Positions 3,291 to 52,547 of a DNA stretch of 64,000 nt are shown here, in pieces; the first letter of the stretch is position 1, and every line of letters starts with the position of its first letter. The notes under the pieces are model-generated. The model saw nothing but the letters and a program-made list of their open reading frames with translations. It ran no database searches and was not told the DNA's origin. This DNA comes from Polychytrium aggregatum (lineage: Eukaryota > Chytridiomycota > Chytridiomycetes > Polychytriales). The stretch is taken from the NCBI RefSeq assembly GCF_025602895.1, contig NW_026516230.1, positions 310,001-374,000 on the forward strand. The letters are read 5' to 3'. Position numbers and translations under genes: made by a program.

Positions 3291-6206
3291 TCAAGACCCG
3301 ATCAGGATGCTGCGTGTGCCGGCTGCCTCGAGGACCCGCATGGCCCGGACCACCGTCAGCGGAGAGAGGCACGGAGGAGGCGATACGAGGATGGTCGAGA
3401 GGGCCGGCGCCGAGAGGGAGGTGTGGAGGGCGTGGATGATTCCGTCGGTCCACATCGCCAGGTCCAGGCTGCTGCCGTCGTCGGGCAGCCCGTTGCTGGG
3501 TCGCCCTTCACCGGCTGCCGCAAAGACCAGCGACAGAACCGACACCCAGATCTGCACCATCGACACCATGAGGTGCCACGGCGAGACCGAGGCTGCCAAA
3601 GACAGGGTCGCTGCTGCTGATGTTGTCGATGTTGCTGATGTCGCTGTCGGTGTTGTTGGTGTTGTTGCTGATGTTGTTGATGAGAAGGGTGCTGAGGAGG
3701 TTGTTGTTGGGAACGCTGCGGAGAGCGTCGTCGAGAGTGGTGTTGAAGGTGTTGTTGAGGATGTGGCCGAGGACGGCAAGGGTGTGGTCGCTGGCTGGGA
3801 ATAGAGCCGACGACAGGAACGGGATGCCGTCACAGGCCGGGGTGCTGTCGAGTCCCCGGCCAGAGTCAACGACCGACCCACCAGCGCCGCCAAGAGCGAC
3901 CCCAACGTCGCCGCCGTCCACAAGTGGAGGCGAGAGGCTGGAGGGGCACCAGGCCAGCTGCCCGGGGGCGATCGAGACATCCACGCCAGCATTGCCTCGG
4001 CGGGAGAGCAGGGTGGACTCCGCGGCAGGGACACCCCGTCAGAGCCACGACCGTCGACGCTGTGGTCGTCGTCGTCGTCGTCGTGATTGTCGTCAGTGTG
4101 GGTATCGGCGTCCGTGACATCTGCGTGCGCCGCGCCGTCGCTCAACATGCATCCATCGCCATGGACAACCACACTGGCCCTGCTCGTTCCGATGGCGCCG
4201 AGTCGGTCGCTGATACGGGCGATGCGGCCCCGGGAGGCGGCACGGCCAATACGAGCAACGTCAGCGAGACCATCGGCCCCGCACCGCCGACACTGACACA
4301 GGCGACCACATCCCTGCGCGCAGTGGCCTGCGGGACAGAGATGCGCCGCCACAACATCCACGACCGTGGTCAGTTGCTGTGAAGTCGGCGGCCGGGGCGG
4401 CACGGACCGGCGCGGTGAGCGAGGAGCTTGCGACGGACGCGGCGGACACGCAGACGGCGGACGCTGACGACACATGGACGGCCATGGCAGAGACTCGGGT
4501 GTTGGGAGCGCTGTCGGCTCGCCAAGTCCACCTGTGAGAGGAGAGAGGGGAGAGAGTGAGTGGGTCACAGCCAGAGCGGCTGTCGAGAGGGTTGTCTGTG
4601 GAGGCGTGGAGAGTGTGGCGGGCGGTTGCGGTGAGAATGAGAACGGTGCGTAGGTTGGTGCTGCAAGCGGCAGTGCTGCAAATGGCAGTGTCGTGGACGA
4701 CGGGTGCGAGAACAAAGAGAACGGAGTGCACGGCAGCAAGGCGGCCGGCGACCCCGGAGTGAGCACGTCTGGGGGAGGAGTGAGCAGGTCCAGCAGTGGG
4801 CTGAAGGTCGGCGTGGTTGCGGGAGGAGTGACTGTCGATGAGAACGGCGACAGGGCCAAGCCCGAGGCCAACAGCCCCTGGGTCGGGACAGGGAGACCCG
4901 TGGGACCGAGTGCAAGTGTCGATGGCAGACGGTCGGTGCTTGCGATGGCGGTGGTGGTGCTGGTGGAGGCATGCTGGTGGGTGGGCGGGAACAGAGCGGC
5001 GGCGCTTGGCGGCGACAGCGAGGCGAGAAAGTCGGCCCCGTCAGTACTCAGGTTGTCGAGCGACAGGAACTCGGATGCAATGCTTCCGTCACTTGGCGAC
5101 GACAGGTCGGCCGGGTGGAACAGATCGACCGACCACAGCGCGTGGCTCGACGGAGGAACGGAATCGTACGAGCTCGGTCCGACCGACAAGGGATGGTCCA
5201 GATCACCCAGATGCATCGGGAACAGATCGCTGGGACAGGAGCCCGCGAGCAGCGACGGAGGGACGTCCTGTGAGAACAGCGGGACATCCTGGCTGTCGGA
5301 AAGACCAAACATGTCCTGGAACTCCACGGAGGCATGTGAGGTGGCGTGGGGCGGCGTGGCCAATTCGGCATCGGCAGATGACAGAATGTCGGGGTCGTTG
5401 GTTGTGTGGTTGGTGGTTGTGGTGTGGTTGGTGGTGGTGTGGTTGGTGGTGGTGGTGTGGTTGGTGGTGGTGTGGTTGGTGGTGGTGTCGCTGCATTCCA
5501 TGCTGCTGTTGGTGGTGCTGGGGGCCGGACCTGCCTGCATCGCCGACGCCAATGCGCTGAGCTGGTCCTGCAGCGCACGGACCTGGCTGGACATGGCGCT
5601 CAGCTGGTCGTGCAGCTGCGAGTTCTGGTCCTCGAGGAGCTTGACCCGCTTGCAGACGGCCCTGTTCTCCTCGACAAGCAGCGAGTTCTGCGACTCGAGA
5701 TCCTCGACGTGCTTGCGCTTCTTCTCGCGCGAGTTGTGGGCCGAGATGCGGTTGCGCTCCATGCGAGCCTTGAGGATCTCGGAGCGATCGACGGCGGAGC
5801 GGGAGCGGCTGGCCAGAACCGGGTTGGTGGGCGGATTCGTTGGTGGGTTCGCAGCTGGACGAGAGGGGCCGTGAGCCGACAGGGCATTGAGCGGCAGGGC
5901 TGGAAGGAGGTCTTGGTGCGTCGGTGGGCACGAGACCGACTGAGTGTGTGGGCTGTCGGGAAGCTCGAGGTCGGCGCTTGGAGATGAGTTGGAGCTGGAT
6001 CGAGACGGCGATGAGGCTGGCGAGGCTGGCGAGTCCGAGGCCGCTGCCGTCGATGGAGACGGCGAGAGCATTGGAGGATCAAAGATCGACAGCTCGGCGG
6101 GATCATTCACCAAGCTCTGACGCGATTGGTTTGAGTGGAGCGGCGTTTGCTGACCAAATGCCTCAGAGAATGTACTTAGCGGCGCAAACCACGTTGAGTT
6201 GGACAT
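3291..6206 (-). CDS. large bZIP transcription factor, HAC1/XBP1/ATF6-like basic region
   Basis: A single exon of 971 residues. I chose the ATG at 6206 (MSNSTWFAPL); the frame stays open to 6455, but that extension reads like leader sequence. Residues about 146-166 form a bZIP basic region containing NRISAHNSREKKRKH, which fits the consensus N-x-x-(A/S)-A-x-x-(S/C)-R. A heptad leucine zipper follows to about 222. The NR..A..SREKKR pattern is closest to the HAC1/XBP1 unfolded-protein-response factors. N-terminal of the bZIP is Ser/Pro-rich sequence. After it come a TTTNH repeat (5398-5492), a long Ser/Thr/Pro-rich region and, near residues 877-899, a hydrophobic segment starting WHLMVSMVQIW that could span a membrane. 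The last 72 residues would then be lumenal. No intron was needed, unusual for this window. DNA binding is well supported; the UPR link is inference. Confidence 0.75.
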   Translation of the reverse strand: MSNSTWFAPLSTFSEAFGQQTPLHSNQSRQSLVNDPAELSIFDPPMLSPSPSTAAASDSPASPASSPSRSSSNSSPSADLELPDSPHTQSVSCPPTHQDLLPALPLNALSAHGPSRPAANPPTNPPTNPVLASRSRSAVDRSEILKARMERNRISAHNSREKKRKHVEDLESQNSLLVEENRAVCKRVKLLEDQNSQLHDQLSAMSSQVRALQDQLSALASAMQAGPAPSTTNSSMECSDTTTNHTTTNHTTTTNHTTTNHTTTTNHTTNDPDILSSADAELATPPHATSHASVEFQDMFGLSDSQDVPLFSQDVPPSLLAGSCPSDLFPMHLGDLDHPLSVGPSSYDSVPPSSHALWSVDLFHPADLSSPSDGSIASEFLSLDNLSTDGADFLASLSPPSAAALFPPTHQHASTSTTTAIASTDRLPSTLALGPTGLPVPTQGLLASGLALSPFSSTVTPPATTPTFSPLLDLLTPPPDVLTPGSPAALLPCTPFSLFSHPSSTTLPFAALPLAAPTYAPFSFSPQPPATLSTPPQTTLSTAALAVTHSLSPLSPLTGGLGEPTALPTPESLPWPSMCRQRPPSACPPRPSQAPRSPRRSVPPRPPTSQQLTTVVDVVAAHLCPAGHCAQGCGRLCQCRRCGADGLADVARIGRAASRGRIARISDRLGAIGTSRASVVVHGDGCMLSDGAAHADVTDADTHTDDNHDDDDDDHSVDGRGSDGVSLPRSPPCSPAEAMLAWMSRSPPGSWPGAPPASRLHLWTAATLGSLLAALVGRSLTLAGDSTAPRPVTASRSCRRLYSQPATTPLPSSATSSTTPSTPLSTTLSAAFPTTTSSAPFSSTTSATTPTTPTATSATSTTSAAATLSLAASVSPWHLMVSMVQIWVSVLSLVFAAAGEGRPSNGLPDDGSSLDLAMWTDGIIHALHTSLSAPALSTILVSPPPCLSPLTVVRAMRVLEAAGTRSILIGS
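5398..5492 (-). repeat. imperfect TGGTTG/GGTGGT repeat coding for Thr-Thr-Asn-His units
   Basis: A run built from GGT and TTGGTGG units inside the bZIP reading frame. On the minus strand it encodes repeated TTTNH and TTTTNH motifs just after the leucine zipper. It keeps the frame open, so it is part of the protein as a low-complexity linker. Confidence 0.7.
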
Positions 6207-40736: not shown

Positions 40737-41331
40737 ACTCATCGATGCCAAATGCTGAAGTCGATTGGCCGAATGTGGGCGCGGATGAGACGAGACCAAC
40801 TCTCACCCTCTATTTACGATCCAATTTTCATGAACTCACCTTGCTCGAGCCACCTTGCCATTTCGTTCGACAATGGCGACTTTTATCGCTCACTATGTCT
40901 GCTCCGCCCTTGATATCGTCGTGTCATCGCTTCTTGCCAGCCGCATAAAATACATGGAAGTCCAGTTTGAATCATTGATCGACTCTGATTTGGCGTCGAC
41001 AAGCCTTGGTCAATTTATCCATGCATCTCAGAACCGTGATATTGTGTCAGTAGCCCGAATGATGCACGCTCGTCCCAAGACTAGATGACAAACACAACGA
41101 CGATCCGAGTCGATCGAATCTCTTGATGAGTCTGGATTGGCCAAAGTGTAACACGGCAGAGCGACCAGCACCCATCATATTATCATTACTGGTCAGCAGA
41201 GAACGCAAAATAGAGCCGTGATCCAGTGAGTTACTAGTATGAGAACGTGAATATCGATATGCAGCGCAACCTATTCGAGGACAACAGGGTTCAAGGCGAT
41301 GAAGGGTTTTGAAGCTGGGTACGGGACGATA
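40737..41331. other. convergent intergenic region, AT-richer
   Basis: 595 bp between the coactosin and NLR stops. A 77-codon plus frame (40855-41088) has a plausible composition but no start context, homology or splice support, so it is not called. Confidence 0.4.
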
Positions 41332-44300
41332 CTATCTGAGGAGCACTTCCAGCCGACCCTGAGCAATTTGATATCCCTGCTCAGCAGCTTTGCGGTACCA
41401 TTCAATGGCTTTGTCAATGTCCCTGGTGACACCCAAAGAATTTTCGTAGCATTGTCCCAAAAATGTCTGTCCGTATCTATTGCCTTGATCGGCCGATATC
41501 TGGAACCATGATATGGCTGCAGCGGGGTCACGTCGGACTCCATTTCCCCATAAAGAGCATCGACCCATCATCCACTGTCCATATGAGTTGTTTTGATCGG
41601 CTGACTTCGAGAACCACTCGAAAGCCTTTGGGTCATTTTTGGGAACACCACAGCCATAATAATAACACGCTCCAATCCAAACCTGGCTGTCACTGTGACC
41701 ATCTTTGGCGAGTTGCTCGAAGATACTTGCTGCCATTGATACATCCTTGGCGATTCCGAAGCCTTGGGCAAGGGAGACGGCAAACAGATGATTGCAGAGC
41801 CAATCGTGTGTGGATCCAAGTTGGCATAACTCGGCAAACTTCCGCACAGCAGGAGAGTAAGGTGTTGTGAATGAAGCACGTCGTACCGCGAGACCATTGT
41901 TCTCTCCAAGTGGGAAGATATTCGACTGATTGTCGCGAATGAGTTGGATTCCCTTCCGCTGATCTCGTTCGGTACCTCGGCCAAGATAGAACATCCAGCC
42001 AAGCATGTGAGTGGCGATGGGTTTGTGGATTGGATCATTGGAGTGGTCGTGGATATCTTGCCAGGAGTTGAAAGCATCGGAGTCACTCTGTGGTAAACCA
42101 AGACCAAGGAAGCAAGCCCAGGCGTGAAGGAATGTTTGGCTGAGGCTGGATTCATCGTGTCCCTGGTCAGCAGCCCACTTGTAGTAAGTCATGGCTCGAG
42201 CAGTATCAATCGATGTTCCGATTCCATATTCATGACATCGACCGAGGTGGAACTGGGCTTCACGATCCCCTTTGTTTGATTGCAGTTGCGATAATTCGAA
42301 ATAGTTCTTCCCTGCACTTGCATGGCCTTGATCAGCAGACTTCTGATACCAACCCAGTGCTCGAGTAGTATCAACCGATGTTCCGATTCCATGTTCATGA
42401 CATCGACCAAGGTGGAATTGAGCACCAGGATGGCCATGATCAGCAGACTTCTGGTACCAACCCAGTGCTCGAGTAGTATCAACCGATGTTCCGATTCCAT
42501 GTTCATGACAGCGACCAAGGTGGAGCTGTGCATCGACATTTCCAGCATTAGATTGTCGCTGTGATAATTCGAAATAACTCGTTGCGGCGTTGGCATGACC
42601 TCGATCGGCAGCCTTCTGATACCAAGTCAAAGCTTGCACAGGATCAATTGGTGTTCCGATTGCATATTCAAAACACCGACCAAGGTGATACTGAGCATCG
42701 ACATTTCTCTCGTCAGATTGTCGCTGTAATAATTCGAAATAGTTCTTTGCTGCACTTGCATGGCCTTGATCAACAGCCTTCTGGTACCAACCCAGTGCTT
42801 GAGAAGTATCAACTGATGTTCCGATTCCATGTTCAAAACATCGACCAAGGTGATACTGAGCACCAGGATGACCATGATCAGCAGACTTCTGATACCAACT
42901 CAGTGCTTGAGTAGTATCAACCGATGTTCCGATTCCATGTTCAAAACATCGACCAAGGTGGAGCTGGGCTTCACGATCCCATTTGTTGGATTGCAGTTGC
43001 GATAATTCGAAATAGTTCTTTGAGGCGCTTGCATGGCCTTGATCAACAGACTTCTGGTACCAACTCAGTGCTTGAGTAGTATCAACTGATGTTCCGATTC
43101 CATGTTCATGACATCGACCAAGGTGGAATTGAGCACCAGGATGACCATGATCAGCAGACTTCTGATACCAACTCAGTGCTTGAGTAGTATCAACCGATGT
43201 TCCGATTCCATGTTCATAACATCGACCAAGGTGGAGCTGGGCATCGACATTTCCAGCATTAGATTGTCGCTGTGATAATTCGAAATAACTCGTTGCAGCG
43301 ATTGCATGACCTTGATCAACAGCCTTCTGATACCAAGTGACGGCTCCACTGAGATCGATCGATCCACCGATCCCATTCTCCAAGCAGCGTCCGAGATGGA
43401 ATTGTCCGTCGGGATGCCCCTTCTGTGCTGCTCGATTGAACCAATGTCTTGCTGCAACTTGATCGCTGTCGGCCCCACGACCTTGTTCAAACCACAATCC
43501 AACCCGCATCTGTGCCTCCGATTCACCCCAATCTGCAGAGATCCTGAAACACTCAAGCGCCTTGCTCAGGTCTCCGTCGTTTCCCCGAGCCTCAAGGAAG
43601 CAGCCATGACTGAAGTGTGTCTGTGTGCAGAGTCGACCCGATCAGTTTGCCATCAAGGTGATCAATCGAGTGCGACCCAAAGCCATGACTCACCTGGATC
43701 ACCAGTGGTCGTCGATTCATCATGATCAGTGTCCCGTGAGTGCTGGTTTGGTGACAACTCCACTCGTACATTCCATGTGGAACCTTGCACATCTGATCTC
43801 CTTGCCGTATCCACTGCGGGATGTCAACCTTCTCCCACACACTCGAGAGTGTCAGTGGATCTGTGGAGACTTTCAGGAGTTCCTCGCCCGAGACTTCTGA
43901 CTGGACAAAGCATCCGTTGTGTCTGATCCACAGTGTGCGGTTGTCTTGCCAGTCAGTGGACTCGAGCAAGTCACCGTCCAAGGACAGGTTGATCGACTTG
44001 ACACCGGTGTCACAACCTTCGAGAGTGTGGATCAACTGGCCTCTGTGTCCGTCCCAGATCTTGATGGTCTTGTCGCTGGACCCTGATGCGATCAACTGGC
44101 CGTCACCAGAAACCGCCACAGCACTCACATCGGCAGTGTGCTCGATGGTGGTTTGGCTGGTGGTTGAGTTGGTGGTTTGGCTGGTGGCTTTGTTTGGCAG
44201 AATGCCGCTTGTGTCGACATCCCACAGCTTGATCGACTCGTCGCTGGAGGCCGACACAACCATTGCGCCATCCACCGATATCGCCACACAGTTCACCCAG

Positions 44301-47300
44301 TTGCTGTGGCCCTCGAGAGTCTGCTTCAGCCGGCCCGATTCTGCGTCCCAGATCTTGATGGTGTTGTCCCACGAGCCAGAGACAATGGTCCTGCCATCGG
44401 ATGAGATCTGAACAGAGGTCACATCTCTGCTGTGTCCATCGAGTGTGATTCGCTCGCCTGTGGATGACTTCCGGATCTCGATCGAGCCATCGCCAAAGCC
44501 AGACACAATCACTTGACCATTGGCCGACACAGCAACACTGTTGACCACGTTGCCGCCGTCATCCATCTCGTCGTCCCCATAATCAAAATCATCGTCAAAA
44601 TCATCATCATCGTCGTGGTCGTCGCAGTCACTGCCTCTCTCAATGGTCTGCTTCAACCGACCCGTGGTGGCATCCCAGACCATGATGCGTTTGTCGCTCG
44701 AGCCAGACACAATCGTGGACCCGTCCGCTGAAACAGCCACAGAGTGAACTTCATCGCTGTGCTTGTCCATCGACAGACACAGTCGGCCAGTGGAAACGTC
44801 CCAAACACGGACTGACTTGTCGTTGGATCCAGACACAATCGAGGCACTGTCAGGAAAGAACGAGATCGATCGCACAGCGTCGCTGTATCCTTTGATCGTC
44901 CGCTTCAACTCGCCAGTGGTGGCATCCCAGATCTTGATCATGTTGTCCCACGAGCCAGAGGCAATCAGCTTGCTGTCGGACGAGAGTGCAACACACGCAA
45001 CCTCGTCGTTGTGGCCATCGATGGTGAGGACTGCTTGGCCTGTGATGGCATCCCACACCTTGATGGTCTTGTCGTTCGAGCCTGATATGAACCACTTGCC
45101 ATTGGGTGAGATCGCCACAGAGTTCACTTGGCTCGAGTGACCAGTGAGTGTCATCTCACACGGATCCCAGGTGGGTGCTGGACCAGCCGTGACCAGGAAC
45201 GGGATCTTGTCCTCGAGCTGGTCGGCATATGTCTTGTAGATCGCCGTCTCCTTCGGTGTGAATGCATACCCCGAGTTGTACACCTGTGGTGCACTCTTGA
45301 TGATCGGGTCGGCAAACTCGCGGATGAATCGATACGTGTCCTTGACCAGTTCCTTCGTGGTGTCGTCGACGATGGTGCTGGGTGCCTTGGCGATCACTCC
45401 TCGCAGCACAGCCAGTTGCTCGATGATCGGCTTGACCACATGTGTGAGCGACCCACACTCGAGCCAGAAGAACACATGTGTCTTGACGAACCGAGTGAGC
45501 ACCGCTGCCACATCGACCATCTCGGGCGACTGCCACACCGGACTCGACTCGGCCTCTCCGTCCACACACCACACAAAGTGTGTGATCCAGTGGGCGACGC
45601 TATATCGCAGCGACGGCGTGATCTTGGCTGCGACCCTGTCCTCGAGGTCGGCGATATTGTCGTGAAAGTCGAAGATCTCGCAAATATTGATCACTGGCTT
45701 GTGCGAGAGGATCACACCGAGACATCTATTGGCAAACACCGTGTGGAAAGAGGTCGACACATGCCACGGATGGCCAGTCGATGCATCGCCGAGGAGATAG
45801 TCCGCCACCGACTTGTGGTTGAACTTGACCTCGGTGTTGGTGGACTGGCTGTCTCGGGGATCCAGTCCATTGGCGCCAGGATCGAGGACCAGAGTGAGGC
45901 TCTTGAGACACTCGCGAACGACGCCGATCTCGAGTCCAAACACATCGACGATGATCTGCGGGGTCAGGATCGACTGGGCCGTGGCGATCGCCGACACCAC
46001 CGTGACCAGCTCGGCTGGGTGGCTCGACTGCGAGTGGATCTTGGCGAATGTCTTGTTGTACAGCTGGCCGACATCGGCGGCGCTGTCGTTGATGTCCTTG
46101 ATCGTGGCGAGTATCACTGGGCCGTCTCTGGATGCTGCATCGACGGTGTTGAGGATCAGGTTGATCCACACGAATGTCTTGGACTGGTCCAGCAGGATGG
46201 CGACTGCCTTGGTGCGGTCCGAGTCACTGAGAGTGTCGTGCACTCGCAGTCGGTGGTGGATGAACACCTCGAGGTCACGGATGTTCTCCTCGCTCGAGGG
46301 TTCGATCGTCTTGGTCGGGACTCCATCGAATGCTGCCTTGATGTCCTCCTCGGGTCGGGATGTCATCAGCAACTTGAGCCACGGACGGGTCCTGTTCAGT
46401 TCGACGAAGCGCACGGCAAGCAGACTGAGCAGCTGATCGCGCGGAGAGCACTCGTCGAGTGCATCCACCAGGATCATCACCGATCCCTTGGGTCTGTAGT
46501 CGCCGATGGCTTCGAGTAGATCAGCAATCACGGCCTTGAACAGATCAGGGATGCTCATCTTGTCGAGGTCGTCCTTGGTGTGGCCAGCATCGAGGAGCTT
46601 GCGGCCGATCGGCGAGTGCCACTTGCACAGACCGTATGCGATGGTGTTCAACACCACTCGTGGATCGCTCTTGCGGATGTCATTGTATTTGAGGAACAGC
46701 GCCGACACCAGCTGGTTGGTGGCTGTGAGGATGTTGGCAATCTGGGCAGCAGCGACAGATTTGCCCACTCCAGCAACGGCATTGACCCACAGGACAGTGT
46801 CGGTGGTGTCTTGGTTGACCCAGTCGGTGGTTTGGTCAAACAGCCACTGGCGAGTACCCTCGACATACAAATCCTCGAGTGCACGTCTGTCCAGGGTCGA
46901 GTCGACGGGATCGAGGAGGGATCGCAGGAGCGAGTCCTGTTCTTTGGTGAGTTGGATGGGACTATCCTTGTGGTATGTTGCTCCTTGGACTGCTGCCGTC
47001 TTGGTCTTGGTGATCAGGTTTCGGATATTGGGGACAAGCCTGAGTTTGGTGGATGGGTGAATGAGTGAGTGGATGAGTGAGTGAGTGAGTGAGTGAGTGA
47101 GTGAGTGAGTGAGTGAGTGAGTGAGTGAGTGAGTGAGCGTTCAGGTTGTTCAGGTTTGGATATGATGATCAGTCGGCATGACGAATGACTGTTACCTCTT
47201 GAGAGCATTTTCATCAACGGCATCGAGAGCCTGGAGCTTCATCAAGTCGCTGAATGTCTGCTGGATGGTCATCGGAAGTCCGTCGACCAGTGGGCTCTTG

Positions 47301-48283
47301 TTGTGGATCGGAGGATAACGAGGAAAGGCGCTCGTGTTGGGAAGGTATTTCATGAATAGATCGTTGCCATCAACATGTCGCTTCGACCACATGAAGATTG
47401 GCTGGATGACAACATGCTGGCCGGTGGTGTCCTCATCCTTCATTCTCTTGAGAGCGTGCTGGATCTGTGGAGGGAGTGAGGGCGAGAGTGAGTGAGATTG
47501 GACTGGCCCACCCTCCAGCGTCGATGCTGTCGGCTCACTCGTTACCTCGAGCAACTGGTTGTCTGGCTTGAGGTGGGCCTCGAAGGTGCGTTTCAGACCC
47601 TCCTCCGACAGCAACAAGACAATCACATTCGATCGATACAGCCCGTTGATGAAACCCTGCTCCCAGTCAGCGCCGTCACAAAGGCAGAGGCTGTCGAGAT
47701 ATATATGGGCTGCTGTCTCGCCCCGACTGTTGGCCGACAGGGCTCCATGCAGGGCCATGGCATTAACGGTGTCACTGCTGACTCGATAGCTGCGACGGGT
47801 GTAAGGAGTCAGTTGGTGGCGAGTGGGTCCGATGAGATATGCGATGGCTCGCCCACCTGATGAACACATCGTGAATGTCATATTCCAACTGGCACTTCCA
47901 CTCTGCAGTCGGAGTCGCTGGAGTATAGTCTCGAGGCTGCATGATGATGATCGGTGGTGTATTTGCTGCTGCAAGGTGAGGGTCAGGCTGGATGGCGACA
48001 GTTGGCGGGTTGGAGGCATGTGCCGCTTGGGCCCTTTGCAGCTTCTTGATAGCCCCTGGCTTCATTCCGATCTCCTTCATGTCATCCACACTGAGGGCGA
48101 GAAGCTGGAACACATGGCTGATTGTCAGGAGCAGTTGGCTGATCGGCAGGGGCGCAGAGCGACATCCATGTTGCCTCTGCTCACCAGCTCGACCGTGTCG
48201 TATTCGTTTTCCAGAAAGTCATCCTTGTATCGAACAAGGTCGCTTTGCTGGAGGAACTCGTCGAAGGCGCCCCCTGGATCCAT
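41332..48283 (-). CDS. SAM-TIR-NACHT-WD40-Sel1 STAND/NLR-type protein
   Basis: Six exons (48283-48185, 48104-47857, 47789-47546, 47464-47196, 47039-43694, 43590-41332) join in phase to 2154 residues. SAM domain at about 1-59; Pro-rich linker; TIR domain from about 107 (EYDIHDVFISYR) through YLDSLCLCDGADWEQGF to about 285, with Glu159 at the position of the NAD-cleaving glutamate. NACHT P-loop NAVAGVGKS at 373-381, Walker B VMILVDALDE at about 474-483. Nine WD40 repeats at about 918-1325 with an acidic insert at 1092-1116. The last 750 residues are Sel1 repeats. The Sel1 frame has no Met before its first repeat, and a perfect CAG|GTGAGT donor plus in-phase acceptor link it to the WD40 exon; two separate genes remain possible. 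Likely a cytosolic sensor of non-self or stress that triggers TIR signalling. Confidence 0.82.
42190..43330 (-). repeat. near-identical 108-bp-period Sel1 coding repeats
   Basis: Blocks such as gtagtatcaaccgatgttcc, followed by gattccatgttcatgacatc, recur at about 42363, 42473, 42912, 43077 and 43185 with almost no change. The repeats encode GIGTSVDTT(Q/R)AL(S/G)WYQKSADHGHPGAQ units. The DNA is more alike than function alone requires, which suggests recent duplication or gene conversion inside the gene. Confidence 0.85.
47068..47136. repeat. (GAGT)n tetranucleotide array in an NLR intron
   Basis: About 16 gagt units in the 156-bp intron between the TIR-end exon and the NACHT-WD40 exon. It is intronic: the flanking exons join in phase across it. 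Confidence 0.9.
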
Positions 48284-49010
48284 GTCAATAACGCCTCGCG
48301 GGGTGGGTGTATGAGCGAGATCGGCCTGGTATCGTGGACGAGGATGCTGTCCTGTCGCTTGGGGCGATGGAGGCTGAGGAGATTTGGAGGGAAAGAGGAG
48401 GACAGAGGCCATTTCATCTCTCGCCCGAACGCCACCCATTCCGTCGACTCACTCGCCATCCACTTGTCGTCAACACTGTGCACACAATCAACCAGCAACC
48501 TGGTGTGCTTCTGGCTGCGACTCTCTGATGGCAACATACAGCTCTCATCTGTGATGGCCATCCTTTGAGATCCACCGGCTCCAAGTGCACAGCGTCAACG
48601 GACGATCAATGAAGCTCCACTCCACACTCAAGGTTCCAGAGCGGTCAGCAAACGACGCCTTGCCTGCGAGATATCCACGGACGGTGCTGGATGCTCGCTC
48701 TGACCGATCACATTCACCCATCAACCACCCACAGCGGCAGCCATGGATGCAGCAGCCGAGCCATCTCCGTCTCCGGTCCTGGATCGCGAAGTATGCTCCA
48801 GGAGTGGATGAGCAGCAGATCATGGGATACACCACCAGCACTAGCTGTCTGGGGTTCCTCAAGCCCATCAATAATCGCTTTTGTCGATGAGTTACTTCTG
48901 AGGCCGTCTCTATTATACTGAGCGGAAGTGGCGACATGCGAGGGTGGCAGAAGGGCCGCAATGCACATTATGCAGTGCGCTATAGTCATGATACATATTC
49001 GGGGATGTCC
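48284..49010. other. upstream region of the NLR gene
   Basis: About 730 bp between the NLR start and the MDM12 stop, both minus strand. Open frames here are shadows or Ser/Arg-rich. No promoter element recognised. Confidence 0.35.
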
Positions 49011-50904
49011 TCAGTCAAAGTCAAAGTCGTCGAGATCGTCGCGATGCGAGGGAGTGTCTTCTTCGTCCGCACCGAGCAGGTCCAGTGAGTGAAAGTTTGG
49101 AAACACCAGGTTGTCATCAATGAACTTTCGCAGCTGCTCCACGATAAACCGCTCGATCTTGCTGACATTCTTGAGCACTGTGTGAGAGTCCGTAATGTTA
49201 ACCCGGACGGTGTCAGCGGATTCTTGTGACGGGTCCCTCAGGTTTTGCCTGCGATTATTCCATGCTGGCGCAACAGCAGGTTGTCACTCGTGGCACTACT
49301 GCTATTCTCACCCTGGCGATTCTTGTCCCCGATTTCCGATTCGATGAATACATCCTGCAGCAGACTGGGGAATCGCACTGTGGCATGAGCTTGTCTGCCG
49401 TCCACAACCACCAGGGTTGGCTTCTATTGTCCTCCCCCGCATCGACGCCGTTCGCGACCGAGTCGGCTGATGAAGTAACGAGATGCACCGATGCCAGCGT
49501 CCACTCGGTGATCCATCCACTCGGCGATCCATCCACTCGGTGATCCATCCACTCGGTGATCCATCCACAACACAATACCTTTTTCCACTCTCCGGCTCTT
49601 GGAAACAAATATTGATGCGAGTTCCAAGATACGCAATCAGCAGCGTTCCTGTCGTTCAAATAATGTGGATCCAGTGCCCCAGTCAGTGCTTCTGTGTGGA
49701 TTATGATGTCCCACCAGTCATTCCGATGTGCACCGACTGCCCAATCGTAGCAGAAAGAGATCAGCGCTGTCGACCAGGAAGGATCGACACCATATCGGCG
49801 ATGCGAGGCCGCCGATGACCCAACCGACTGATTCAGCCAATTGATGGCTTGCACCCACCACTGAATGCAAATCCTGTGAGACTCAGGGTCAGGGGCAGCA
49901 CCATAAAGTTTGGCGTTGGGTGGTTGACGATCAGCTCGGTCGATATGGACAGGCGCATATTGCCCTTATACTCGACCAAAAGCTCGACCTGGGCATCGGT
50001 TTCCCGCTTCAGGCTCTCGGCCTGCTGGATCATGAGGTCCTCCGAGATCATGGTGTCTGGCCACATATTGCGTTCTGGATGCGGATGCCCTGGCGATGCG
50101 ACTACTGCGACTGCGGACGCAGGTTCGCCGCGAGACGGCGGATTGGAGTATCCCTGATCGAACGAGTAGTGAGACGCAGCAGAGCCCGGGTTGGAGCCCG
50201 AGACCAGGAGCCCCGGAAACGAAGTGCTCGAGAGCTGTGGTGTGAGTGCCCGAAACGGCGGCATCGTCGTCGACTGGGCCAGATGCAGGCCGACGCCGAT
50301 GGTGTTGGATGTTCGCCCGACGGCCTCGGTGATCGAGCCTCCACCATAGTCGTCCGAGAGTGGGCCATGTCGCTCGCCGCCGCCCCAGGCATATCCGTAT
50401 CCATCGGCGCTGCCTGGTCGGCCCGGTCCAAACTCGGAGCCGCCGAGAGGCGAACCATCGCTTGGGAGTGGAAAGCCTCGGTCGGCGCGCGAGTCAAAGT
50501 CATCGAGCGGTCCGCTGCCGTGCTGCAGGTCCAGGTCGTCCTCGTCGGGGAGGTAGAACTCGGTCAGCGGGTCGGTGATGTCCTTGATCTCGATGTTGGG
50601 TGGGATTGTGCCAAAGTCCAGGTCGATGATCGAGATTGGCCCAATGAACGACGGTCGGGTGAGATGCTCAAAGTGCTTGTTCAGGAAGTCTTGCAGATTC
50701 TTGGCGACGCCAGAGTCCAGCTTGTCCCTGCGGGTCCATCCCGAATGGCGACGGATTGCAGGCCCAACGAGCAAAGGGCCGAGAGTTAGGGAGTGAATGC
50801 TGGTACAAGACAACAGCCGGACGGGGCAATCCGAGGACATGCCTCGAGCCAGGGCCAGACAGCAGATTGGATGGGCGGTATTACCATTGGATGTCGAAGC
50901 TCAT
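49011..50904 (-). CDS. MDM12: MDM12, ER-mitochondria encounter structure (ERMES) subunit
   Basis: Five exons (50904-50885, 50727-49859, 49648-49579, 49364-49312, 49177-49011) join in phase to 392 residues. The 20-bp first exon encodes MSFDIQW with exon 2, the canonical MDM12 start, followed by DKLDSGVAKNLQDFLNKHF and RPSFIGPISIIDLDFG. A disordered Gly/Ser/Pro insert sits between about 73 and 245, as in other MDM12 proteins. Then come LVEYKGNMRLSISTELIVN, LLIAYLGTRINICFQEPESG, FIESEIGDKNRQ and VLKNVSKIERFIVEQLRKF with VFPNFHSLD near the end. MDM12 is a lipid-transfer SMP-domain protein working with Mmm1, Mdm34 and Mdm10. ERMES is a mark of fungi and some protists. The third intron carries a 16-bp tandem repeat (49497-49565). 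Confidence 0.96.
49497..49565. repeat. 16-bp tandem repeat in an MDM12 intron
   Basis: Unit like tcggtgatccatccac, four to five copies, in the intron between MDM12 exons 3 and 4. Copies differ by t/c changes (cggtgatc/cggcgatc). Confidence 0.8.
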
Positions 50905-51338
50905 GGCGACAGCGCAGTGGGAGGGATGCGGGCTGCAGGAGCTATCTGGAGGCCACGGCGAGGATGAGCGGCTGATCGAGGCAGAGGCCGGTTTGTCCTG
51001 CCAATGGCCGATTTTGTCCTGCCAAGGAAACGGACCTCGACAAAACACACAACTGCCTCGATCTCGCCCGGCCGAGAGCCGTGCCAGCATCCATCCAGCC
51101 ACACAGGCCGTTCCCCGCATCATCAAGCACCCCTCGGCATTCCCGTAGGTACCCCGCGGTCATTTCGTCGATATCTTGTCCGTCTCCGGGCGGCGGCATC
51201 GTTTGTTGATATTTGAGGCGCCCCCCACCATCAACAGCCGCCACCGACTTCCCGAAAACCTCGTTCCCATTCGCATTCTCATTCGCATTCTCATTCGCAT
51301 TCTCATTCGCATTCTCACTCAATCCCCATTCGCAGGCC
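50905..51338. promoter_or_regulatory. divergent promoter with 12-bp tandem repeat
   Basis: 434 bp between the MDM12 start (minus) and the RBR start (plus). A 12-bp unit (ctcattcgcatt) repeats about five times at 51265-51318, in the presumed 5' untranslated region of the RBR gene. In the RBR frame it would read FAFS, which looks noncoding. Confidence 0.55.
51265..51318. repeat. 12-bp tandem repeat, about 5 copies
   Basis: Unit ctcattcgcatt, nearly perfect, ending 21 bp before the RBR start codon. Confidence 0.85.
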
Positions 51339-52547
51339 ATGTCCTGTCAATGCTGTTTCGAAGTGGCTGAATCGGACCCGCTCGTGCAGTGCTCCTCGAA
51401 TCCGACACACATCTACTGCCACGCCTGCACTAACTCGGCCGTCGAGAACTTTGTCTTCCAAAAGAGCTCCAACTACGGCAAGCCTCTGGCCTGCTTCGGC
51501 ATACAGGGCTGCGAAGGTGTCCTCAAGAACGTCGGACCCGCCCTCGAGGGCCAAGACCCGCTCCAGGCTCGGCGATACAAGCACTCCCTCGAGGTCGGCA
51601 AGGCCGAGCAGTATCTGGAGATACCCCGGAACGGCCTGCGAAAGTGCCCGAGCTGCGGGTTCTACCAGATTGACGCCGACATGGTCCGCACGATCCAAGA
51701 ACGAGAGGAGAAGGAGCGGCGGGAGCAGGCCCAGTTGCTCTGGCGCTGGATCCAGGCGCTCTGGGGCACTGTCGTCGGGGTCACCATGGCGCTCTGGTCA
51801 TGGACGCCGAATCTGGTTACTCTCGATCCGGCTGAAGACTGGGAGGGCCTCCTGGCCGAGGACCCTTTTCCGTCGCTGAGTCTGGAAGAAGACACCGACC
51901 GCAGTAGCAGAAGCACCACCGGCAACGACCACTGGCAGCCTGGACGGTCGAAAGCATCAGTCCAACCCATGGCTGAGCCTCAAGTCGAGACCACCTTCCG
52001 ATGCTGCAACGATGACTGCCGAGCAACCATCTGCCTCCGCTGCACCTGCCCGATCGTCGGGGCCATCGACGAGCACCAGCGAGAATGCCAGCAGAGTCTC
52101 CGGAAGCTGCCGCGGCGAGACCGCCTTCAGCTGTTGTTCGACTCGGTCCTGGAGGAAGCTCGGTCCAGGGCCATCAAGCTTGTCTGCCCAAAGTGTCATC
52201 TCGCCATCACCAAGACCACGGACGAACGCTCCTGCAACAAAATGACTTGCCCAAACTGCCGCATCCACATGTGCTGGGTCTGCCACTACACCATCCGCGG
52301 ATACGACCACTTTTGCCATTGCCACCAGCAGCGCTGGCTGAACTTGATCTCGACCGTCAGCTCGACCACGGGCCGGTGCAGCGACTGCAACCGGTGTCCG
52401 CTCTACGAGTTCAGCACGACCGATGCACAGCGACGCAGCCTCGAGAAGGCCAAGAGCCGCTTCATGGAGGCGTATCCAGACTTTACTCCCCGCGACTGGC
52501 TGACGGCCCAGATCAAGGGATGGTGGAGGACACTCTTCAAGCGCTGA
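51339..52547 (+). CDS. RBR-type E3 ubiquitin ligase, RNF216/TRIAD3-like
   Basis: One intronless frame; the ATG at 51339 gives 402 residues (the frame is open to 51213, but that part is repeat). RING1 starts CQCCFEVAE...YCHACTN. An in-between-RING region (RCCNDDCRATICLRC) follows. RING2 at about 283-315 is CPKCHLAITK...RSCNKMTCPNCRIHMCWVC, where Cys299 aligns with the catalytic cysteine that carries the ubiquitin thioester. The following GYDHFC with a Cys cluster is characteristic of the RNF216 subgroup. Unusual is a hydrophobic stretch between RING1 and the IBR (LLWRWIQALWGTVVGVTMAL), which could be membrane-associated. Likely ubiquitinates proteins for turnover or signalling; the target is unknown. 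Confidence 0.9.
   Translation: MSCQCCFEVAESDPLVQCSSNPTHIYCHACTNSAVENFVFQKSSNYGKPLACFGIQGCEGVLKNVGPALEGQDPLQARRYKHSLEVGKAEQYLEIPRNGLRKCPSCGFYQIDADMVRTIQEREEKERREQAQLLWRWIQALWGTVVGVTMALWSWTPNLVTLDPAEDWEGLLAEDPFPSLSLEEDTDRSSRSTTGNDHWQPGRSKASVQPMAEPQVETTFRCCNDDCRATICLRCTCPIVGAIDEHQRECQQSLRKLPRRDRLQLLFDSVLEEARSRAIKLVCPKCHLAITKTTDERSCNKMTCPNCRIHMCWVCHYTIRGYDHFCHCHQQRWLNLISTVSSTTGRCSDCNRCPLYEFSTTDAQRRSLEKAKSRFMEAYPDFTPRDWLTAQIKGWWRTLFKR

Follow-up and report, generated by a model that had tools for sequence, protein, structure and literature searches.

The 64,000-nucleotide (nt) stretch of the Polychytrium aggregatum genome analysed here (the window; contig NW_026516230.1, positions 310,001 to 374,000) carries on its minus strand a gene whose product contains, in order, a SAM domain, a TIR domain, a NACHT-type nucleoside triphosphatase (NTPase), a WD40 array and a long Sel1 tail. 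The original prediction, made from the sequence, had proposed a phase-consistent single gene with these modules in this order, and the architecture was recovered: six exons maintain one frame to a single, terminal stop codon, and introns of 80, 67, 81, 156 and 73 nt all run from GT to AG. The continuous frame stood, although the predicted length of 2154 residues had to be corrected to 2164. The features, in window coordinates and protein residues, are as follows.

48283-41332, minus strand: whole gene, six exons, five GT-AG introns, 2164 codons
48283-48185, 48104-47857, 47789-47546, 47464-47196, 47039-43694 and 43620-41332, minus strand: exons 1 to 6
48018..48271, minus strand: SAM domain, residues 5-62, split by intron 1 (Pfam SAM_1)
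48184-48105, minus strand: intron 1, 80 nt, splitting the SAM domain
47381..47882, minus strand: TIR domain, about residues 108-225, split by introns 2 and 3
47856-47790, minus strand: intron 2, 67 nt, splitting the TIR domain
47546..47548, minus strand: codon of Glu197, last of exon 3, candidate catalytic glutamate of a nicotinamide adenine dinucleotide (NAD+) hydrolase (NADase)
47545-47465, minus strand: intron 3, 81 nt, splitting the TIR domain
47040..47195, minus strand: intron 4, 156 nt, with a 4-nt microsatellite at 47057-47137
45185..46999, minus strand: NACHT-type NTPase region, residues 301-905 (NPHP3_N)
46786-46757, minus strand: Walker A, VNAVAGVGKS, residues 372-381
46480-46451, minus strand: Walker B, VMILVDALDE, residues 474-483
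43952..45160, minus strand: WD40 array, residues 914-1316, nine units by motif, the ninth degenerate
43621..43693, minus strand: intron 5, phase 0, linking the WD40 exon to the Sel1 exon
41332..43620, minus strand: Sel1 exon, 762 residues plus stop (Pfam Sel1)
41093..48890, no strand assigned: duplicated unit of ~7.8 kb, common to the window, C201:281.6-289.8k and its probable C42 allele

A profile search for the five domains had been suggested as a check on this model. Run with Pfam, it placed SAM, WD40, Sel1 and NPHP3_N above their cut-offs, and TIR_2 and the NACHT model below. SAM_1 matched residues 9-58 with 37.7 bits (cut-off 23), NPHP3_N, a NACHT-type P-loop model, scored 98-100 bits (cut-off 24.8), and WD40 (261 bits over 7 stretches) and Sel1 (452.7 bits over 13 stretches) lay far above threshold. 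The shortfalls, 21-22 bits for TIR_2 over residues 113-208 (cut-off 28) and 13.9 bits for the Pfam NACHT model itself (cut-off 26.7), count against the five-module assignment. Both Walker motifs are intact, as had been claimed; the expected nine WD40 units can be counted by motif, the fifth holding an acidic insert that starts at 44629; and the length of the Sel1 exon agrees with the roughly 750 residues foreseen. Single-sequence AlphaFold2 modelling rendered the WD40 part as an all-beta repeat with modest confidence (mean predicted local distance difference test 64.5 in the best model, 43-50 in the other four), and we give it no weight as evidence. A sequence search of the PDB with the NACHT region returned a single match, to an antibody, which we ascribe to chance.

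The TIR assignment was evaluated across the family to which this gene belongs. All 12 paralogous TIR sequences matched TIR_2 with E values of at most 0.1 (the lowest being 9.9e-8), and a profile of these 12 members gave 21 matches at E 1 or better among PDB sequences. Seventeen SARM1 chains ranked first (from E 1.4e-4); of the remaining four, three were VCAM-1 (E 0.04) and one an acetyltransferase (E 0.5), and these four look like chance matches. SARM1 is the only convincing PDB relative of the profile. The TIR domain of the family thus reads as genuine, a judgement founded on the 12 member matches and the SARM1 profile match rather than on one weak score. In the alignment of the family profile with the PDB sequences, the Glu197 column coincides with the glutamate of the SARM1 KEIVTAL motif, which we take to be the catalytic residue E642. 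This glutamate is kept in 20/20 TIR exons, in 6/6 further exons from lower-ranked loci and in 11 of the 12 alignment members; the exception, which weighs against an enzymatic role, is a copy on C57 (L064) with glutamine instead. Pfam PF01582 (TIR) had zero matches in the whole genome and PF13676 (TIR_2) had 27, the best of them in TIR genes that are not among the loci listed for this family. These other TIR_2 genes, for example at G000:C386:1072842-1073114, far outscore the window member, the best reaching 63.9 bits. No relative was found in the prokaryote genomes scanned with the family TIR alignment, and PADLOC gave no match at E 0.01 for the family TIR or NACHT.

Nine of 11 family SAM sequences matched SAM_1 at E 0.01 or better. 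The original prediction had described two stacked effectors at the N-terminus; both domains are present, but two effectors are doubtful. Given that SAM is an oligomerisation fold and that SAM before TIR is the order seen in SARM1, the N-terminus reads better as one SAM-TIR cassette.

We infer the splicing of the six exons from the DNA. The junctions from SAM to Sel1 likely belong to one gene, because a diverged paralogue, C57, keeps the module order and intron sites and because the part of the Sel1 exon before its first methionine is under purifying selection. In the C57 copy all five modules are present; its head is 45-71% identical and its WD40 tail, which carries a frameshift, ~90% identical. 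Intron 5 is at an equal position in four recent copies and in C57, where the intron sequence has diverged; intron 4 is also present in C201:287k and C201:383k, with altered repeat length. In the window Sel1 exon the first methionine is codon 38, and the preceding 37 codons show a ratio of nonsynonymous to synonymous differences (pn/ps) of 0.39 relative to C57, as expected if they are spliced to the WD40 exon. A Sel1 exon lies 1.53-1.58 kb behind NACHT at five or more loci (the window, C201:287k, C42:98k, C201:383k and C57:273k), after a 73-nt or similar intron at a common phase-0 site, and TIR exons 3 and 4 are found just upstream of NACHT in 30/30 loci, this set being the 30 best NACHT matches. 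These observations argue against two or three adjacent genes (SAM-TIR, NACHT-WD40 and Sel1) having been wrongly joined by the model. Such an error could nonetheless draw on the many Sel1 open frames of ~400-700 residues that occur away from the listed NACHT loci, on intron 3, which in the window copy is in frame and stop-free, so that read-through is possible and the sequence does not force all splicing, and on a methionine at codon 10 of the C57 Sel1 exon, which makes a separate start conceivable for that copy. Intron 3 and the start codon (the same open frame extends upstream with further ATGs) are provisional in the model as drawn, and the C57 methionine counts against it. On balance we consider a false joining very improbable.

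The Sel1 array is composed of tandem, near-identical DNA units of 108, 165, 273 and 438 nt, each divisible by three and in frame. The genome search for Sel1 scored 59 of 877 candidates, so that five carriers is a lower bound and more diverged tails may be missed; two further NACHT loci have Sel1 4.7-4.8 kb downstream. As far as seen, the tail is a rare part of the family. Its carriers also temper the five-module reading: C201:383k is without a detectable SAM, C57 combines its frameshift with the substituted glutamate, and only the window and C201:287k/C42 have the full form intact. C201:287k and C42, which agree across the 80 nt inspected beyond both ends of the duplicated unit, are probably alleles, and the window copy represents a segmental duplicate of their locus, 7.8 kb long. 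Inspection by eye found no target-site duplication at the unit boundaries, where repeats were scanned at each end separately; a mobile-element origin was considered on this evidence and rejected, plain segmental duplication being simpler. The recency of the duplication and the presence of broken copies elsewhere in the family would fit a decaying, unexpressed duplicate. We give this little credence, however, since all 2164 codons are open, both probable alleles have intact frames, of 2291 and 2602 residues (with parts of 872 and 1200 residues after exon 5), and the exons flanking intron 5 have pn/ps of 0.31-0.46 between the window and C57.

A similar donor site at the end of WD40 was found in 11 of the 30 loci, three of which (L053-L055) then show a different short tail motif, suggesting from the sequence that 3' exons are exchanged at this donor. 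Many genomic Sel1 open frames away from the listed NACHT loci share about 48-57% identity with the C-terminal portion of the window array. Such NACHT-free frames are a possible source of the tail.

Searched against its own genome, the NACHT region matched 77 times, at 71 loci spread over 56 contigs, with 63-100% identity; scoring covered 71 of the 168 first-look candidates, and the family therefore comprises at least 71 loci. Many of these form near-identical pairs on separate contigs, which are probably uncollapsed haplotypes, so that distinct loci would be fewer. Among the matches listed, 64 of the 71 loci have a same-strand TIR match no more than 2.5 kb upstream. In the set of 30, SAM lies upstream of TIR with both halves in order at 25 loci and with the C half alone at 2, and is lacking at 3; reversed controls gave zero matches. 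With TIR upstream in every one of these loci and SAM in 25, SAM-TIR-NACHT-WD40 is the usual form of the family. L017 (G000:C24:677316-680645) and L018 (C161) carry tandem SAM domains before TIR (SAM-SAM-TIR); C125 and C374:142k resemble these siblings. At L059 (G000:C334), WD40 breaks off after ~38 residues; behind it, at about 3838-4450, an open frame that by eye is NB-ARC-like contains the P-loop-like motif GGMGKS and may belong to another gene of the STAND (signal transduction ATPases with numerous domains) class. The 64.7 Mb assembly of 418 contigs contains genes for radial-spoke proteins and for chitin synthase, in keeping with a zoosporic fungus, and this bears out the flagellated host assumed in the original prediction.

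Divergence within this family is unevenly distributed along the protein. Over 20 loci drawn from the 30 best NACHT matches (190 pairs; 136-171 pairs for WD40 residues 951-1200), the mean proportion of synonymous differences was 0.06-0.13 in NACHT residues 451-900 and 0.21-0.22 in residues 351-450, and reached 0.62 in TIR exon 3 and 0.55-0.60 in WD40 residues 951-1200. The 3' edge of the low-divergence block is sharp: it falls between residues 901 and 930 and coincides with the first WD40 unit. Ranking by NACHT similarity could itself fake NACHT conservation, and six lower-ranked loci with NACHT 78-85% identical to the window were added. Between 11 representatives and these six, the synonymous values for the two NACHT segments, TIR exon 3 and WD40 were 0.16, 0.31, 0.66 and 0.61, and among the six alone 0.16, 0.31, 0.36 and 0.54. 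The contrast persists beyond the top-ranked set, but is smaller.

Among the 11 representatives, NACHT distances were uncorrelated with those of TIR (rho 0.21, p 0.12) and WD40 (rho -0.12, p 0.38); nor did distances in one half of NACHT correlate with those in the other (rho -0.10, p 0.49). Three results count against complete independence of the modules and indicate that shuffling is not wholly free: the N half of NACHT tracks TIR (rho 0.39, p 0.003), distances in the C half are inversely related to those in WD40 (rho -0.38, p 0.005), and TIR distances correlate with WD40 distances (rho 0.57). In L035/L037/L040, L043/L045 and L050/L056 the TIR exons are 0-0.4% apart, yet WD40 differs at 31-37% of sites; L046/L051/L053 have similar heads (1.6-2.8%) with fairly similar tails (11-15%). 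The four recent copies differ by 1.9-3.0% in NACHT, 1.2-2.8% in WD40 and 0-1.2% in TIR exon 3, with TIR exon 4 differing by 3.7% in 2/3 comparisons; among the 11 representatives, divergence is 5.7% for NACHT, with the two other regions at 38.5 and 36.2%. At the sites where the recent copies differ, both states recur in 16 distant loci for 52/75 NACHT positions (360/1677 columns variable), for 15/31 in WD40 (945/1185 columns variable) and for 1/3 in TIR exon 3; sites free to vary would somewhat inflate the NACHT count even without conversion.

Taken together, we read the low NACHT divergence, uncorrelated distances, shared site states and swapped ends as a sign that NACHT undergoes gene conversion and that heads and tails are reassorted around it. 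Constraint on synonymous codon positions, or a recent insertion burst that spread one NACHT piece into old heads and tails, would likewise give low divergence, and could be read into the way the N half of NACHT follows TIR and into L012, which is nearer the window in TIR (84% identical) than in NACHT (79%). We regard either origin as unlikely, because the NACHT halves vary without correlation, because shared states are frequent in a region with few variable columns compared with WD40, and because NACHT is as diverged as WD40 in recent copies yet far less so than TIR and WD40 among the representatives. Gene conversion with reassortment allows us to hypothesise a combinatorial repertoire in this flagellated fungus, in which a NACHT core homogenised at dozens of loci by ongoing ectopic gene conversion would be the exchange point for SARM1-like SAM-(SAM)-TIR heads and WD40 tails, and optional 3' exons, such as the hypervariable Sel1 array whose length differs between probable alleles, would be added by exon shuffling through the shared phase-0 intron. 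For this extended scheme we see the case for and against as evenly poised.

By its sequence the window protein has the NACHT-type NTPase with Walker motifs, N-terminal signalling domain and C-terminal repeats that characterise fungal NOD-like receptors (NLRs; NOD, nucleotide-binding oligomerisation domain). We think it more probable than not that the locus is an intact single gene for a receptor of this type, a member of a large family, whose TIR domain consumes NAD+ on activation. In such a receptor the WD40 propeller and Sel1 array would sense a ligand or a guarded cellular protein, the ATP-binding NACHT would then oligomerise with the aid of SAM, and the clustered TIR domains would turn into an NAD+-consuming enzyme, as in SARM1, after which the cell would signal or die. 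Here the domains, the nucleotide-binding motifs, the kept glutamate, the single frame through six exons and a repertoire that pairs a little-diverged NACHT with varied heads and tails are read from the DNA, and oligomerisation, NADase activity, cell death and a non-self trigger are put forward by analogy with NLRs and SARM1. The protein might instead be a scaffold or signalling protein with a non-enzymatic TIR and no immune role, acting for example in development. SAM, WD40 and Sel1 are general interaction modules, the family SAM profile fits Caskin and Eph-receptor SAMs best, with SARM1 SAMs weaker (E 0.003-0.008), and one copy has lost the glutamate. A scaffold is nevertheless a doubtful explanation: that residue is kept in all of the 20 and the 6 exons compared, and the size of the family, the change in Sel1 length between probable alleles and the way in which heads and tails reassort are typical of recognition families.

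Beyond the gene, the window contains at 49836-50900 on the minus strand a match of MMM1 type, a mitochondrial morphology family (29.5 bits, cut-off 21.9), and at 51252-52544 on the plus strand a weak match of IBR type (19.9 bits, below the cut-off of 24.3) whose DNA matches only itself in the assembly. The latter is a possible E3-ligase-like neighbour.

In the excerpts available, Dyrka 2014 (PMC4986451) gives zero NLR hits in chytrids, and a 2025 survey gives numbers from one upward in species of Chytridiomycota. Likewise in excerpt, Wojciechowski 2022 (PMC9815663) states that TIR is reported in NLRs of Chytridiomycota and mentions a SAM_Ste50p annotation and double-domain N-termini in fungal NLRs, and Daskalov 2023 (PMC10197012) reviews combinatorial modules and the concerted evolution of repeats. 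Of the layout that the original prediction expected to be new, TIR in chytrid NLRs and two-domain N-termini had, according to these sources (PMC9815663; PMC10197012), already been reported. In an open-access literature search, in which most papers were judged from the listing, none was recognised as describing the SAM-TIR-NACHT-WD40-Sel1 order. Within the reach of these searches, novelty lies in how large the family is, in a SAM-TIR form occurring in a flagellated fungus, in the Sel1 tail and in how little NACHT has diverged. Set beside the chytrid surveys, as excerpted, a zoosporic fungus with dozens of NLR-type genes of an unusual SAM-TIR form stands out. If our interpretation is correct, it would mean that flagellated fungi have large NLR repertoires and effectors resembling SARM1, provide a fungal system in which NACHT, and not the WD40 repeats, is the homogenised part, and make head and tail reassortment testable by long-read population sequencing.

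Several known systems share parts of this organisation. Fungal NLR and STAND proteins, as portrayed in extracts of three papers (PMC4986451; PMC9815663; PMC10197012), are alike in their N-terminal signalling domain, central NACHT-type NTPase and C-terminal repeats, and in a large variable repertoire with different heads on similar NODs and repeat arrays that change length. They differ in having HET, HeLo or Goodbye heads where this family has SAM-TIR; here, moreover, NACHT varies little between loci whose heads and tails have diverged, and a Sel1 array follows WD40. The HET-E, HET-D and HET-R proteins of Podospora (HNWD) also form a multigene family with a NACHT-WD40 core and varying repeats, according to the same extracts, which describe the WD40 repeats as the concertedly evolving part, whereas here this is apparently NACHT and the Sel1 array. 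Their head is HET rather than SAM-TIR, and no HET domain was among the Pfam matches (E 0.1 or better) in the first 300 residues of the window protein. SARM1, an NAD+ hydrolase of ARM-SAM-SAM-TIR architecture, resembles the family in having SAM before TIR, with tandem SAM in siblings L017 and L018, in being the best match of the TIR profile and, by sequence alignment, in its catalytic glutamate. In contrast to SARM1, NACHT-WD40 comes after TIR, the SAM domains are not specifically SARM1-like, and no ARM domain was among the Pfam matches (E 0.1 or better) in the first 300 residues of a scan that began at 48283. Plant TIR-NB-LRR receptors have an NB-ARC switch and a leucine-rich repeat (LRR) tail. 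They resemble this family in that a TIR head precedes an NTPase switch and a tail of repeats, and differ in combining NB-ARC with LRR where the chytrid protein combines a NACHT-type switch with WD40 and Sel1.

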